From Bacteroidota bacterium (GTDB lineage Bacteria; Bacteroidota; Bacteroidia; Cytophagales; Cyclobacteriaceae), in NCBI GenBank assembly GCA_003973485.1, contig QNXU01000268.1, forward strand, positions 1 to 40,774: a stretch of 40,774 bases of DNA, given 5' to 3'. The notes beneath the pieces were generated by a model. It ran no database searches, had not been told where the DNA came from, and was given only the letters and a program-made list of their open reading frames with translations. The translations under genes and the position numbers were made by a program. This document shows positions 8,862-29,815 of the stretch, piece by piece; the first letter of the stretch is position 1, and each line of letters starts with the position of its first letter.

Positions 8862-9218
8862 TTAGTACCTATTCAACAAAGATTCATAAGGAATTTTCAA
8901 TTTCTCATGGAGGTTTCTAATCATTTTAAGCGTTAATTTTCTTTTTCGACTTAAAATTTCTGAGGCACGGCTTTTATACCCTATGATTTCAGCCAAATCC
9001 TTATTTTTCATGCCCATTTGTTCCATTCTAAATTTAATGGCTTCAATTGGATCAGGAGCTTCAATTGGATAATGCTCATCTTCATATTTTTCAATCAAAA
9101 TTGAAAGCACTTCCGCTTCATCACCCTCATGTGTATCTGCCGGTGCATGAAATATTTCCTCAAGCCTTTTTAATGCTTGATTATATTCAACTTCATTTTT
9201 TATTACTTTGATTTGCAT
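8862..9218 (-). CDS. higA: HigA-type antitoxin (HTH XRE family)
   Basis: Listed ORF 8862..9341; likely start is the ATG at 9218 (MQIKVIKNEVEYNQALKRLEEIF...), 1 nt after the HigB stop. C-terminal HTH: MGMKNKDLAEIIGYKSRASEILSRKRKLTLKMIRNL. Confidence 0.88.
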   Translation of the reverse strand: MQIKVIKNEVEYNQALKRLEEIFHAPADTHEGDEAEVLSILIEKYEDEHYPIEAPDPIEAIKFRMEQMGMKNKDLAEIIGYKSRASEILSRKRKLTLKMIRNLHEKLKIPYESLLNRY

Positions 9219-9219
9219 A

Positions 9220-9513
9220 TCAAATTGTATTTGCATCAATTTTATCGTAATCCGAATGTGTTCCAATGAATCTGATAAATACCCATTGTCTTTCATAGTT
9301 GATATCAACGACCAACCTATACTTATTACCACATATATCAAAAACTACTCTACCTCCTTTTAGTATGCTTGACTTTGCGTATTCATTTTTAATATCCGTT
9401 GGGTTGTTCCAAAGAGCTTTAGACGCCTCTTTATACCAAGTTTTTAATTGCTCCTCTGTTTCAGCATGCTCTTCCCAGAACTCACGAAGAATCTTTTTAG
9501 CGATAACTCTCAT
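9220..9513 (-). CDS. higB: HigB-type toxin (type II TA mRNA interferase)
   Basis: 97 aa; MRVIAKKILREFWEEHAETEEQLKTWYKEA...RLVVDINYERQWVFIRFIGTHSDYDKIDANTI is the HigB_toxin family pattern; toxin precedes antitoxin. Confidence 0.92.
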   Translation of the reverse strand: MRVIAKKILREFWEEHAETEEQLKTWYKEASKALWNNPTDIKNEYAKSSILKGGRVVFDICGNKYRLVVDINYERQWVFIRFIGTHSDYDKIDANTI

Positions 9514-23776: not shown

Positions 23777-23799
23777 AAACCATTAAATTTTAGTGGTTT
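23777..23799 (+). promoter_or_regulatory. Inverted repeat overlapping the probable start of the DUF6471-like gene (candidate operator)
   Basis: AAACCA (23777-23782) / TGGTTT (23794-23799); the GTG at 23793 lies at the right arm. Confidence 0.25.
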
Positions 23800-24134
23800 A
23801 CTTGTGTTCTAAGATAATAATTCGCATATTTGATGACTATAATTTCAAATATGATATTTTGAAACCTTGGAACGAGTATATTAAGCGGAAATTAAAATCC
23901 GAAATGGTTAAACGTGGCATCAGCAATGATGAACTTGTCCAACGATTGGATAGAATTGGTGTAGAGATGTCAAAGTCTAGCCTTGTTAATAAGATTAGTA
24001 GAGGGTCTTTTTCTGCTGCTTTCCTCATTCAATGTTTATATGTAATTGGCTGTCATGAAATTGAAATTGAAGAACCGCTAAGTATGGTTGCTGAAAATCC
24101 TGTTAAATATAAAAAATCCAAAAAGAAGTCATGA
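23793..24134 (+). CDS. Small DUF6471-like (HTH-type) protein
   Basis: 113 aa; WNEYIKRKLKSEMVKRGISNDELVQRLDRIGVEMSKSSLVNKISRGSFSAAFLIQCLYVIGCHEI matches the DUF6471 pattern. Overlaps the next gene by 4 bp (ATGA). Confidence 0.72.
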   Translation: MVYLCSKIIIRIFDDYNFKYDILKPWNEYIKRKLKSEMVKRGISNDELVQRLDRIGVEMSKSSLVNKISRGSFSAAFLIQCLYVIGCHEIEIEEPLSMVAENPVKYKKSKKKS

Positions 24135-26770
24135 AAAATCTGTTTTGTAATTCAACTGATTTAAAAAACGAAGCGGATGTAGAAGCTTTGTTTGTTGAAC
24201 GGCTTCTCAATTATTTTTCTTTTCCAGATGATCGTGTAAAACGGAAACGATCACTTGACGAAATGGTAATAGGGCAAGGGTCAAAAAAGGAAAAATACAA
24301 GCCTGACTATGTTTTGTTTGATTCAGCTGGCGATCCAATTATTGTAATAGATGCTAAGGCACCTTCAGAAAAGATTGAAGATTATCAGTATCAAGTTTCA
24401 TCTTACGCTCTTGGTTTAAACCAAAAATTCAAAGATAAGAACCCAGTAATATTTACAATTCTAACAAATGGTTTATACCTAATTGTTTACCCTTGGGATA
24501 ATAGTCAACCCGAGCATTTTTTAAAGTTTGAAGACTTTGCCCCACACAATGAAAGTTTTATAGAACTTAGATCTAAACTTTCATATTCAGCTTTTGAGCA
24601 TGCAAAAGCAACCAAAGGTATCTTTGAACACGATAGACCAACTTTACACTCTCTTCTAAAGTCTTTTAATGATTGTCATGATTTAATTTGGAAAAAGGAA
24701 AAAATCAGTCCAACTGATGCTTTTTATGAATTCTCAAAAATTATGTTCATTAAAATAAGGGAAGATAATAAAATCCATAATAAGTTTTCTAGTGGAGAAA
24801 CGCTTACAAAGGATCATTTTGTTTTCTCAACCCACTGGTTAGATGCGATGGCTAAAAATGGTATAGATCATCCATTTGATAAAATTCTTTTTAGTCAAGT
24901 TCAGGAAGATCTTGAAGAACAAATAAAAAGAAATAAGAAAAAGAGAGTCTTTGAAAAAGATGAAGGATTAAATCTGAAGGCTTCAACTGTCTATGAAGTT
25001 GTTAAAAAACTTCAACATTTTGATTTATATGGAATTGATGAGGATCTTAATGGAAGAATGTTTGAAACATTCCTTAATGCAACGGTACGAGGAAAAGGGC
25101 TAGGTCAATTTTTTACTCCTAGAGGTGTTGTTCATTACATGGTCGAGTCTACTCCTTTGACCATAAATGTCAGCAAAGAAAAATCTTTGGCAGAATCAAT
25201 CCCGTATGTTTTTGATGGGTGTTGTGGCAGCGGTGGTTTTTTAATTGATGCTATGGCTCAATTTGTTCGGGATATAAATAATAAAACAAATTTAACTGAT
25301 AAACAAAAACACGCATATTTAGAAGAAGCAAAGAATAATCATTTATTTGGCATAGAGGCGAATGCTAAAATATCGCGAATTGCTCGTTTGAATATGTATT
25401 TGCACGGTGATGGTGGGAGTAAAATTTTTAAAGCGGATGCTCTTGATAAACTGATTCAGTCAGAAGCTGGAATTTCAAGAGAAGAAGAACAGGGTTTAAC
25501 AGAATTAAGGGATGAATTCAATATAAACCACCTTAAATTTGATGTTATTCTTTCTAATCCGCCATTCAGCATGAAGTATGACTCTAAAGATCCTAATGAG
25601 AAGGTTGTCTTGGAGCAATATTCTAAAGTGAACAGGGTTGGCACAAAAATGACAAACTCAGAAAAATCTAACGTTCTATTTTTAGAAAGGTACTTAGATT
25701 TATTAAAACCCGAAACTGGAGAATTATCAACTGTTATTGATGACACTGTAATTAACGGGCAAAAAAGTCAGAGGTACAGAGATTTTTTACTTGAAAATTT
25801 CATTCTTATCCAAGTAATTTCTCTACCCTTCAATACTTTCTTTGGTGCAGAAGCCAATGTTAAGACATCTATCATTCATTTAAGAAGAAAAAGTGAAGGG
25901 GAAAAACAAGGGCATATATTTATGGCAATTGCCAATAATGTGGGGCATGATGATCATAAAAAACCAACGCCTGATCGAAATAATTTACGTGAGATAATTC
26001 GCTATTATGAAAGATGGCAGAACGGGGAAAATATAGAAGATGTGATAATTGACAACCAGTCAAATGATGAGCCGCTTGGATGTCCAATGCAAATATTTAC
26101 AGTTTCTCCAGATAACTTTAACAAAGAGCGTTTGGATGCTTTTTATTACGCTCCAGAATTAGTGAAAGCCAGAGAAAAACTTTTTAGATTAAAGGATTCA
26201 GGTGAAATAGATCTGTTCTATGGCAGAGACTTCGAAATTATACCTGAAATCAAAAAAAGGGAAGAGAAAAGCTTTGCTGGAAACACATATAAATATTTCG
26301 AAATAGGAGATGTCACCATTGATGGTACAATTGTTAAATACCGAGAAGAACCTTTTGAATCTCTACCAACAAGAGCACGACTTCAAGTTCGTAAGGATGA
26401 TGTGATTTTTGCCAAAAACAATAGTAGTCGGGGAACGACCGTAATAATACCGAGTGAATTTGACGATCAACTTGTTACTACAGGATTTATAGGTATAAGA
26501 CCGAAAAATCACGATGAAAAATATCTTCTTTGGGGAATTCTTGAATCTGAATTCTTTAGAAAACAAATTTATTACCTCTCAATAACTGCGTCTCAGCCTG
26601 AGGTTAGAGAGACCATATTTAAGAATGAGATAATAATTCCCATTCCACGGGATGAAAAAGCAAAGCAGAATATAATTGACAATGCTATTCAAGCAGAAAA
26701 AGCAAGAATCAGCCTTAGTAATGCTGTCAAAGGTTCAAGCGATGCCGTTAATAGTATCTTTAACGTTTAG
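24131..26770 (+). CDS. Single-polypeptide restriction-modification enzyme: N-terminal HsdR_N-like nuclease, gamma N6-adenine methylase, C-terminal TRD (type IIG-like)
   Basis: 879 aa; PD-(D/E)xK candidate KPDYVLFDSAGDPIIVIDAK; SAM motif FDGCCGSGGFLIDAM; catalytic NPPF (ILSNPPFSMKY); C-terminal type-I-S-like segment ...RKDDVIFAKNNSSRGTTVI...EFFRKQIYYLSITASQPEVRETIFKNEIIIPIP. No DEAD/helicase motifs seen. Confidence 0.88.
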   Translation: MKNLFCNSTDLKNEADVEALFVERLLNYFSFPDDRVKRKRSLDEMVIGQGSKKEKYKPDYVLFDSAGDPIIVIDAKAPSEKIEDYQYQVSSYALGLNQKFKDKNPVIFTILTNGLYLIVYPWDNSQPEHFLKFEDFAPHNESFIELRSKLSYSAFEHAKATKGIFEHDRPTLHSLLKSFNDCHDLIWKKEKISPTDAFYEFSKIMFIKIREDNKIHNKFSSGETLTKDHFVFSTHWLDAMAKNGIDHPFDKILFSQVQEDLEEQIKRNKKKRVFEKDEGLNLKASTVYEVVKKLQHFDLYGIDEDLNGRMFETFLNATVRGKGLGQFFTPRGVVHYMVESTPLTINVSKEKSLAESIPYVFDGCCGSGGFLIDAMAQFVRDINNKTNLTDKQKHAYLEEAKNNHLFGIEANAKISRIARLNMYLHGDGGSKIFKADALDKLIQSEAGISREEEQGLTELRDEFNINHLKFDVILSNPPFSMKYDSKDPNEKVVLEQYSKVNRVGTKMTNSEKSNVLFLERYLDLLKPETGELSTVIDDTVINGQKSQRYRDFLLENFILIQVISLPFNTFFGAEANVKTSIIHLRRKSEGEKQGHIFMAIANNVGHDDHKKPTPDRNNLREIIRYYERWQNGENIEDVIIDNQSNDEPLGCPMQIFTVSPDNFNKERLDAFYYAPELVKAREKLFRLKDSGEIDLFYGRDFEIIPEIKKREEKSFAGNTYKYFEIGDVTIDGTIVKYREEPFESLPTRARLQVRKDDVIFAKNNSSRGTTVIIPSEFDDQLVTTGFIGIRPKNHDEKYLLWGILESEFFRKQIYYLSITASQPEVRETIFKNEIIIPIPRDEKAKQNIIDNAIQAEKARISLSNAVKGSSDAVNSIFNV

Positions 26771-29093: not shown

Positions 29094-29492
29094 TTATGAT
29101 ATAGTCCAGTTTTCGATTTCTAAGTTACGTATCCTTTTAAAATGTTTCTCATTATTTGTAACTAACACCATATTTTCCTGCGCTGCAGTAGAACCTATTA
29201 GTAAGTCAAAATCATCAAGAATTTTTCCTTCTTTTTTAAGTTTGGCTTTTTCCTTTGCAAAAATATCTAGAGCACTAAAAATTGTAAGTATTTTAAATTT
29301 ATCAATCAGTTCGTTGATTATTGGTCTATTCTTTTCTGGTTTATCGCTTTTCTCAACCCCGAACTTTAATTCTGCAACAGTTATTTCAGAGATATATAAA
29401 TTTTCAAACCCTATTTTATCCATTTTTTCAACCAAGCCATATCTACCCTTCAAAAAATAAATGCAAATGTTCGTATCCAACAAATATTCCAT
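29094..29492 (-). CDS. vapC: VapC-type PIN-domain toxin
   Basis: 132 aa; MEYLLDTNICIYFLKGR, ISEITVAELKFGVEKS, DDFDLLIGSTAAQENMVLVTNNEKHFKRI. Confidence 0.95.
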   Translation of the reverse strand: MEYLLDTNICIYFLKGRYGLVEKMDKIGFENLYISEITVAELKFGVEKSDKPEKNRPIINELIDKFKILTIFSALDIFAKEKAKLKKEGKILDDFDLLIGSTAAQENMVLVTNNEKHFKRIRNLEIENWTIS

Positions 29493-29734
29493 TATAATTC
29501 TTCAATTTGTCGATTTGTATATCTATCTGCTCTAATATCTTCGATTATTTGCTCTGCACTTTTATCAGATTCCCAAGCACCAAATAAATTTTTCCAAGAG
29601 TTATCTTGAGGAATGTCTTTTGTTGTTTCAATAGATTTTGAGATTTTACTAATTAAGTCAAGTTTTACATCTGAACTTAAGTTTTTAACTATTTGAAAAA
29701 TATTTTCGGCTATATCTATTTCTTTAGATTCCAT
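29492..29734 (-). CDS. VapB-like antitoxin
   Basis: Listed ORF to 29758; likely start MESKEIDIAENIFQIVKNLSSDVKLDLISKI at 29734. TAATG 1-bp overlap with vapC; FGAWESDKSAEQIIEDIRADRYTNRQIEEL. Confidence 0.82.
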   Translation of the reverse strand: MESKEIDIAENIFQIVKNLSSDVKLDLISKISKSIETTKDIPQDNSWKNLFGAWESDKSAEQIIEDIRADRYTNRQIEEL

Positions 29735-29815
29735 AATATTTGATTTTACATTTAGCAATTTAACAAAATAAATAAGGATATAATTTCGATAGCACTTATC
29801 TGAGCAAACAAATTT

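Follow-up and report, generated by a model that had tools for sequence, protein, structure and literature searches.

The controller (C) genes of classical restriction-modification (R-M) systems precede the gene for the restriction enzyme (R), and most of what is known of C proteins comes from type IIP systems. These proteins are small helix-turn-helix regulators that bind, at their own promoter, a pair of palindromic operators and control R and in some cases the methylase (M) (PMC3115060, PMC3874152, PMC12707154); in C.Csp231I the two operators read CTAAGN5CTTAG and are spaced by about 18 bp (PMC3115060). In Mycoplasma gallisepticum, a type I hsd operon is known to have a C-family repressor gene upstream (PMC5282649, as reported in PMC12707154). 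The regulation of type IIG enzymes has been described as undetermined (PMC3695507). For single-chain enzymes a review offers only control by assembly, the IIC enzymes being proposed to methylate as monomers and to cut only as dimers (PMC12707154). In the literature searched, we found no description of transcriptional control of single-chain R-M enzymes.

The locus described here lies in a 40,774-nt stretch of Bacteroidota DNA that we analysed as a whole (the window) and is likely to be a mobile type IIG (IIC) R-M system under its own small, C-protein-like autoregulator, a protein of the family DUF6471 (Table 1). A first-pass annotation of the window had described a DUF6471-like gene overlapping an 879-aa open reading frame by ATGA, and both were confirmed: the small gene matches DUF6471 (PF20075) with an E value of 2e-26 and 92 bits against a cut-off of 26.8, and the larger frame (24131-26770) begins within its stop codon. 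Profiles and motifs also bore out what had been read in the larger protein, namely a PD-(D/E)xK nuclease, a gamma-class N6-adenine methylase and one C-terminal target recognition domain (TRD). In particular, the protein matches N6_Mtase (E 1e-33), Eco57I and, weakly, HSDR_N_2 (E 1.8e-5), it carries E14, PD at 58-59, D74-A-K76, DGCCGSGGF at 362-370 and NPPF at 476-479, and its C-terminal part matches an S-subunit model with one specificity-type region. When the enzyme was aligned with 22 relatives, E14 was near-invariant, D59, D74 and K76 aligned with the D…(E)xK residues of the relatives that bear this domain, and methylase motifs I and IV were intact. Among proteins of solved structure, the RM subunit of BsaXI is nearest in sequence (E 2e-25 over aa 14-592). 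Moreover, a Foldseek search with an AlphaFold2 model of the enzyme (mean pLDDT 72) returned BsaXI and BpuSI as the best matches, with DrdV lower in the list, plus lone methylases. The earlier description of a compact type IIG-like enzyme that lacks a translocase is thus supported by its families, the BsaXI match and Foldseek; helicase motifs, which had been named as evidence that would count against it, were looked for, and profile searches matched no helicase family in the enzyme or in adjacent genes, nor was an HsdR translocase subunit found within the cassette. (A type I or ISP reading of the enzyme was rejected because a helicase is absent.) With R, M and S in one chain, no SF2 translocase and intact catalytic residues, the protein is, as judged from its sequence, a type IIG (IIC) enzyme to which a single TRD is fused, an already-known kind of enzyme.

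Table 1. Features of the DUF6471-type IIG cassette and its upstream region, in window coordinates.
Feature	Position	Strand	Basis and remarks
Candidate -33 element TTG	23802..23804	+	20 nt before the -7 element; kept in R. spongicola, spacer diverged; Bacteroidetes consensus
Candidate operator box A (TTCGCATATTTGATGA)	23821..23836		Matrix rank 15 of 40,759
Candidate -7 element CATATTTG	23825..23832	+	7/8 to TAnnTTTG; overlaps operator box A
Candidate operator box B (ATTTCAAATATGATAT)	23842..23857		Inverted copy, 21 bp from box A; matrix rank 16 of 40,759
DUF6471 gene, predicted XRE-fold controller, 91 aa from TTG 23859 (frame open from GTG 23793)	23859..24134	+	PF20075; codon-change pattern; AlphaFold2 pLDDT 86; Foldseek
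Type IIG (IIC) restriction-modification-specificity enzyme, 879 aa	24131..26770	+	ATG within the DUF6471 stop (ATGA)
PD-(D/E)xK nuclease region, N-terminal (E14, D59, D74, K76)	24170..24505	+	HSDR_N_2 aa 20-126; residues conserved among aligned relatives
Gamma-class N6-adenine methylase domain (motif I DGCCGSGGF, motif IV NPPF)	25040..26026	+	N6_Mtase aa 304-632, E 1e-33
Single target recognition (HsdS-like) region, C-terminal, about aa 658-856	26102..26698	+	MAD5/S subunit model aa 658-856; solved S subunits aa 718-847

The 113 aa that had been assigned to the small protein are probably too many. Between the window and Roseivirga spongicola, which carries the same gene, the first 66 nt of the longer frame (23793-23858) differ by eight non-synonymous codon changes and one synonymous change, whereas the rest of the gene differs by 12 non-synonymous and 33 synonymous changes, which argues that this 66-nt segment is probably non-coding. 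In addition, the conserved start pattern of the homologues (M-x-x-W) coincides with TTG 23859. The codon pattern and the start pattern therefore point to TTG 23859, rather than GTG 23793, as the probable true start, giving a protein of 91 aa. An AlphaFold2 model of this protein has four helices, and Foldseek matched it to HipB, C.BclI, ClgR, C.Esp1396I, C.AhdI, CI and C.EcoT38I; the alignments to C.BclI and C.Esp1396I span 58-66 residues with an rmsd of 1.6-1.9 Å and a probability of 0.9-0.99, at E > 0.001. Because every Foldseek E value was above 0.001, a Cro/CI-type (XRE) fold is supported but unproven, and we refer to it as predicted. In profile searches of the protein, DUF6471 was the only family above its cut-off, with no such match to HTH_3 or known C proteins; a CI-repressor match fell below threshold, and no sequence relative was found in the PDB. 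(Elsewhere in the window, a 159-aa protein encoded at 8862-9341 on the minus strand has an HTH_3 match below threshold.)

Searches of Bacteroidota samples of 59, 396 and 351 genomes (partly overlapping), plus R. spongicola, yielded 11 DUF6471 genes that are intact and one that is decayed. Each of the 11 intact ones is the first gene of an R-M operon and lies directly upstream of the methylase, which is of the m5C type at nine loci and type IIG at two. The nine m5C loci have a convergent restriction enzyme gene, which is NgoBV-like in seven and BanI-like in L130; that of L131 was judged BanI-like from the matching start of its sequence. (Note that the decayed copy, at L136 4915-5109 in reversed orientation, retains remnants of the operator boxes described below but is without a methylase, and that its genome also has an intact copy, L134.) With respect to the linkage across genomes on which the first-pass annotation had made its reading depend, the pairing of DUF6471 with a type IIG enzyme is conserved only in Roseivirga (two instances, the window and R. 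spongicola), and it is the broader linkage of DUF6471 to R-M genes, seen in every intact Bacteroidota case, that held up. In R. spongicola the same two-gene cassette, with an intact frame and an enzyme 94% identical to that of the window, lies between other genes, and three close relatives (G004, G006 and G007) have the window's flanking genes in the same order with different genes between them, which argues that the cassette is mobile. Also among Roseivirga, the site beside an M3 peptidase gene varies (L170, L171, L173, L172), and in L172 it holds a 362-aa gene and a 563-aa Walker A ATPase gene that resemble a defence pair. A PIN-domain (VapC-like) gene at 29094-29758 on the minus strand of the window follows an 88-aa open reading frame and is likely to form a toxin-antitoxin pair with it.

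At the nine m5C loci a block of approximately 55 nt preceding DUF6471 is conserved and the DNA further out is not; beyond 65 nt upstream, most pairs are ~30% identical without gaps, with L130/L134 reaching 46%. A box, TTTGCATATNTNCAAA, lies 53-54 nt ahead of the first domain codon at these loci, with a second box 20 bp on. A 16-column operator matrix was built from the nine m5C loci only, with the window excluded, and was then scanned across the window. The sites at 23821 and 23842 were the sole pair 10-40 bp apart in the window and lie ahead of DUF6471; at other window gene starts the second-best rank was 225 or worse, and none of 120 column-permuted, symmetry-keeping matrices equalled the real one. 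The sequence GCATATTTG is found once in the window, and GCATATTTG-N13-CAAATATG has a single occurrence in the genome at zero mismatches, before DUF6471; R. spongicola has one occurrence at one mismatch, likewise before DUF6471, where the matrix gives its boxes low scores (ranks 53-66 of 14,622). Palindrome tests by shuffling at single loci were mostly weak and not significant, and we therefore base the case for an operator on the footprint seen across loci and on the independent test with the matrix. By these computations, paired palindromic boxes 20-21 bp apart are present at the promoter of DUF6471 itself. The -7 promoter consensus of Bacteroidetes is TAnnTTTG (PMC9723704), and the common core of the boxes, CATATTTG, could in part be a -7 element rather than operator. 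Promoter and operator, as read from the sequence, probably overlap, as autoregulation would predict, and some of the similarity between boxes may be that of the promoter.

Among Pseudomonadota, DUF6471 was above the cut-off in 34 of 399 genomes, and most of the genes do not adjoin R-M genes. They are mostly either divergent from a transposase inside matching terminal repeats or in a fixed place next to a pair of other genes; the transposase we take to be of the IS1595 type and the pair to be queA-tgt, names assigned by reading the sequences rather than from a family search. The R-M systems that DUF6471 heads are nonetheless varied, comprising type IIB (L098/L181), M+S (L040), type III (L042) and MmeI-like (L150/L179) systems; several of those in Pseudomonadota sit inside IS1595-type transposons, and L040 (M+S+AAA) and L042 are plasmid loci. 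For example, perfect repeats at L181 (589-7560) enclose transposase remnants, DUF6471, a IIB-like RM fusion and an S subunit, the L180 transposon (right end 14790) has type III mod/res further down the cargo behind DUF6471, and that of L179 (right end 9335) carries an MmeI-like enzyme of 1319 aa. (Two of these three transposons also carry DUF5131 and GMT/three-Cys-motif-like genes.) L089 (1645-6137), L091 (1422-6218) and some ten other loci of this kind contain IS1595-type transposons with the terminal repeats CTTATGNAGCAAANGCACCAA, within which DUF6471 is divergent from the transposase and often adjoins a gene for a ~300-aa protein of an uncharacterised family. L099, L102, L103, L105 and L107-L109 form a separate DUF6471 clade whose position on the chromosome is fixed, with a PspA-like gene on one side and queA-tgt on the other. 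In a DUF6471 tree of only 65 columns, in which many forks are without resolution, the Bacteroidota R-M-linked proteins form one clade (support 98/95) within which the type IIG pair of Roseivirga is separate from the m5C type. Because other R-M-linked proteins fall outside this clade, at least two separate associations of DUF6471 with R-M systems arose.

The arrangement in Pseudomonadota, divergent from an IS1595-type transposase between terminal repeats and with R-M cargo or none, raises the idea that DUF6471 serves mobile DNA as an orphan regulator, acting for example on that transposase, and that its link with R-M systems is hitch-hiking. We regard this as unlikely, since no transposase adjoins any of the 11 Bacteroidota genes and yet all have kept the R-M link at short spacing; moreover, the shared promoter has kept its boxes, and a regulator without an R-M role would not be expected to persist in this way. 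(Around four of the Bacteroidota loci, no flanking pair of IS1595 terminal repeats was found. No DUF6471 was found in phage records, or in viral contigs with the window query, and a phage origin was rejected on this ground.)

For the small protein, which the first-pass annotation called a dedicated partner of the enzyme, both a C-protein analogue and a structural subunit had been proposed. The word dedicated does not fit, as the family heads other R-M systems too. That DUF6471 might instead belong to the enzyme as a subunit, with a structural role or one in modulating activity, much as a small specificity protein or an inhibitor would, would agree with the translational overlap and strict adjacency of the two genes and with a C-terminal tail that is common to the Bacteroidota DUF6471 proteins and absent from other members. 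However, the linked enzymes are without a common fold or subunit plan (m5C with a separate restriction enzyme, type III, M+S, type IIG), full-length relatives of the enzyme in Actinomycetota (33% identity over 97%) are without DUF6471, and an XRE fold is predicted for the DUF6471 protein, whose gene has operator-like boxes; none of the loci examined outside Roseivirga had DUF6471 near an enzyme relative. We consider a subunit role of any kind quite improbable, and reject a structural one because DUF6471 is common to unrelated enzymes and absent from relatives of this one; linkage, boxes and predicted fold favour the C-protein analogue. (In two actinobacterial loci, L045 7698-8219 and L046 7689-8162, a hypothetical gene of 157-173 aa follows the single-chain relative, which has no DUF6471 in front.) It is very unlikely that we are dealing with a decayed unit or an orphan methylase whose nuclease no longer functions, as the weak HSDR_N_2 match might suggest, since both Roseivirga copies retain E14, D59, D74 and K76, in agreement with the ECK/EAK motif of the relatives, so that the degenerate motif that had been foreseen as a counter-argument was not borne out, and since the frame is intact at the identity to R. 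spongicola given above and the changes in the partner gene are mostly synonymous.

If the cassette is an autoregulated type IIG system, as we favour, dimers of DUF6471 with a Cro/CI-type helix-turn-helix would bind the two palindromic boxes, approximately two helical turns apart. With the boxes overlapping the promoter of the DUF6471-enzyme operon, DUF6471 would set the level of both proteins; translational coupling is probable because the start codon of the enzyme lies within the DUF6471 stop. We infer that the regulation would be autorepression, possibly with activation at low levels, as in C proteins. A single-chain enzyme leaves no way for M to be staged ahead of R, and the likely gain is therefore control of level, by which the enzyme would be kept low upon entry into a new host, where, on the proposal cited above, IIC monomers methylate and only dimers cut.

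Because the family heads several unrelated R-M systems, often with paired repeats, DUF6471 is probably a new kind of R-M control protein. We lean towards the broader view that R-M controllers comprise a second, independent family, namely DUF6471, a plug-in regulator of the XRE type, borne in part by IS1595-type transposons, that fronts R-M systems of nearly every type (IIP, IIG, IIB, I-like, III and MmeI-like), single-chain enzymes included. What is new is the regulator family, its promiscuous R-M linkage and its predicted operator. A function is thereby proposed for a Pfam domain of unknown function on which we found no paper in the literature searched, the spread of R-M systems is linked through DUF6471 to a class of transposon, and a regulator with a predicted operator before a fused enzyme makes the question of transcriptional control in IIG/IIC systems directly testable.

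Among known systems, BsaXI (its RM subunit), BpuSI and DrdV resemble the window enzyme in having an N-terminal PD-(D/E)xK nuclease, a helical linker and a gamma-class N6-adenine methylase. BsaXI, whose record names it Type IIB, has a separate S subunit, whereas the window enzyme has its one TRD fused at the C-terminus. As at the M. gallisepticum hsd locus, in the account cited above, a small regulator thought to control the whole operon lies upstream of M, S and R genes; there, a C-family protein is combined with a type I enzyme, and here DUF6471 with a single-chain enzyme that has no translocase. Like C.BclI, C.Esp1396I, C.AhdI and C.Csp231I, DUF6471 is small, has a predicted XRE fold, comes first in an R-M operon and has two palindromic boxes upstream. 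Unlike C proteins, it belongs to a Pfam family of its own, it neither matches HTH_3 nor has a sequence relative in the PDB, its boxes are TTTGCA/TGCAAA-like rather than GACT/AGTC, and it is spread over type IIP, IIG, IIB, III and MmeI-like systems. Furthermore, DUF6471 precedes M or a fused RM enzyme, whereas the C gene precedes a separate R; R is encoded convergently in the m5C type, and in type IIG it is part of the fused enzyme. This comparison suggests that, although it is not a member of the C-protein sequence family, DUF6471 probably works like a C protein in plan, in position and probably in fold.
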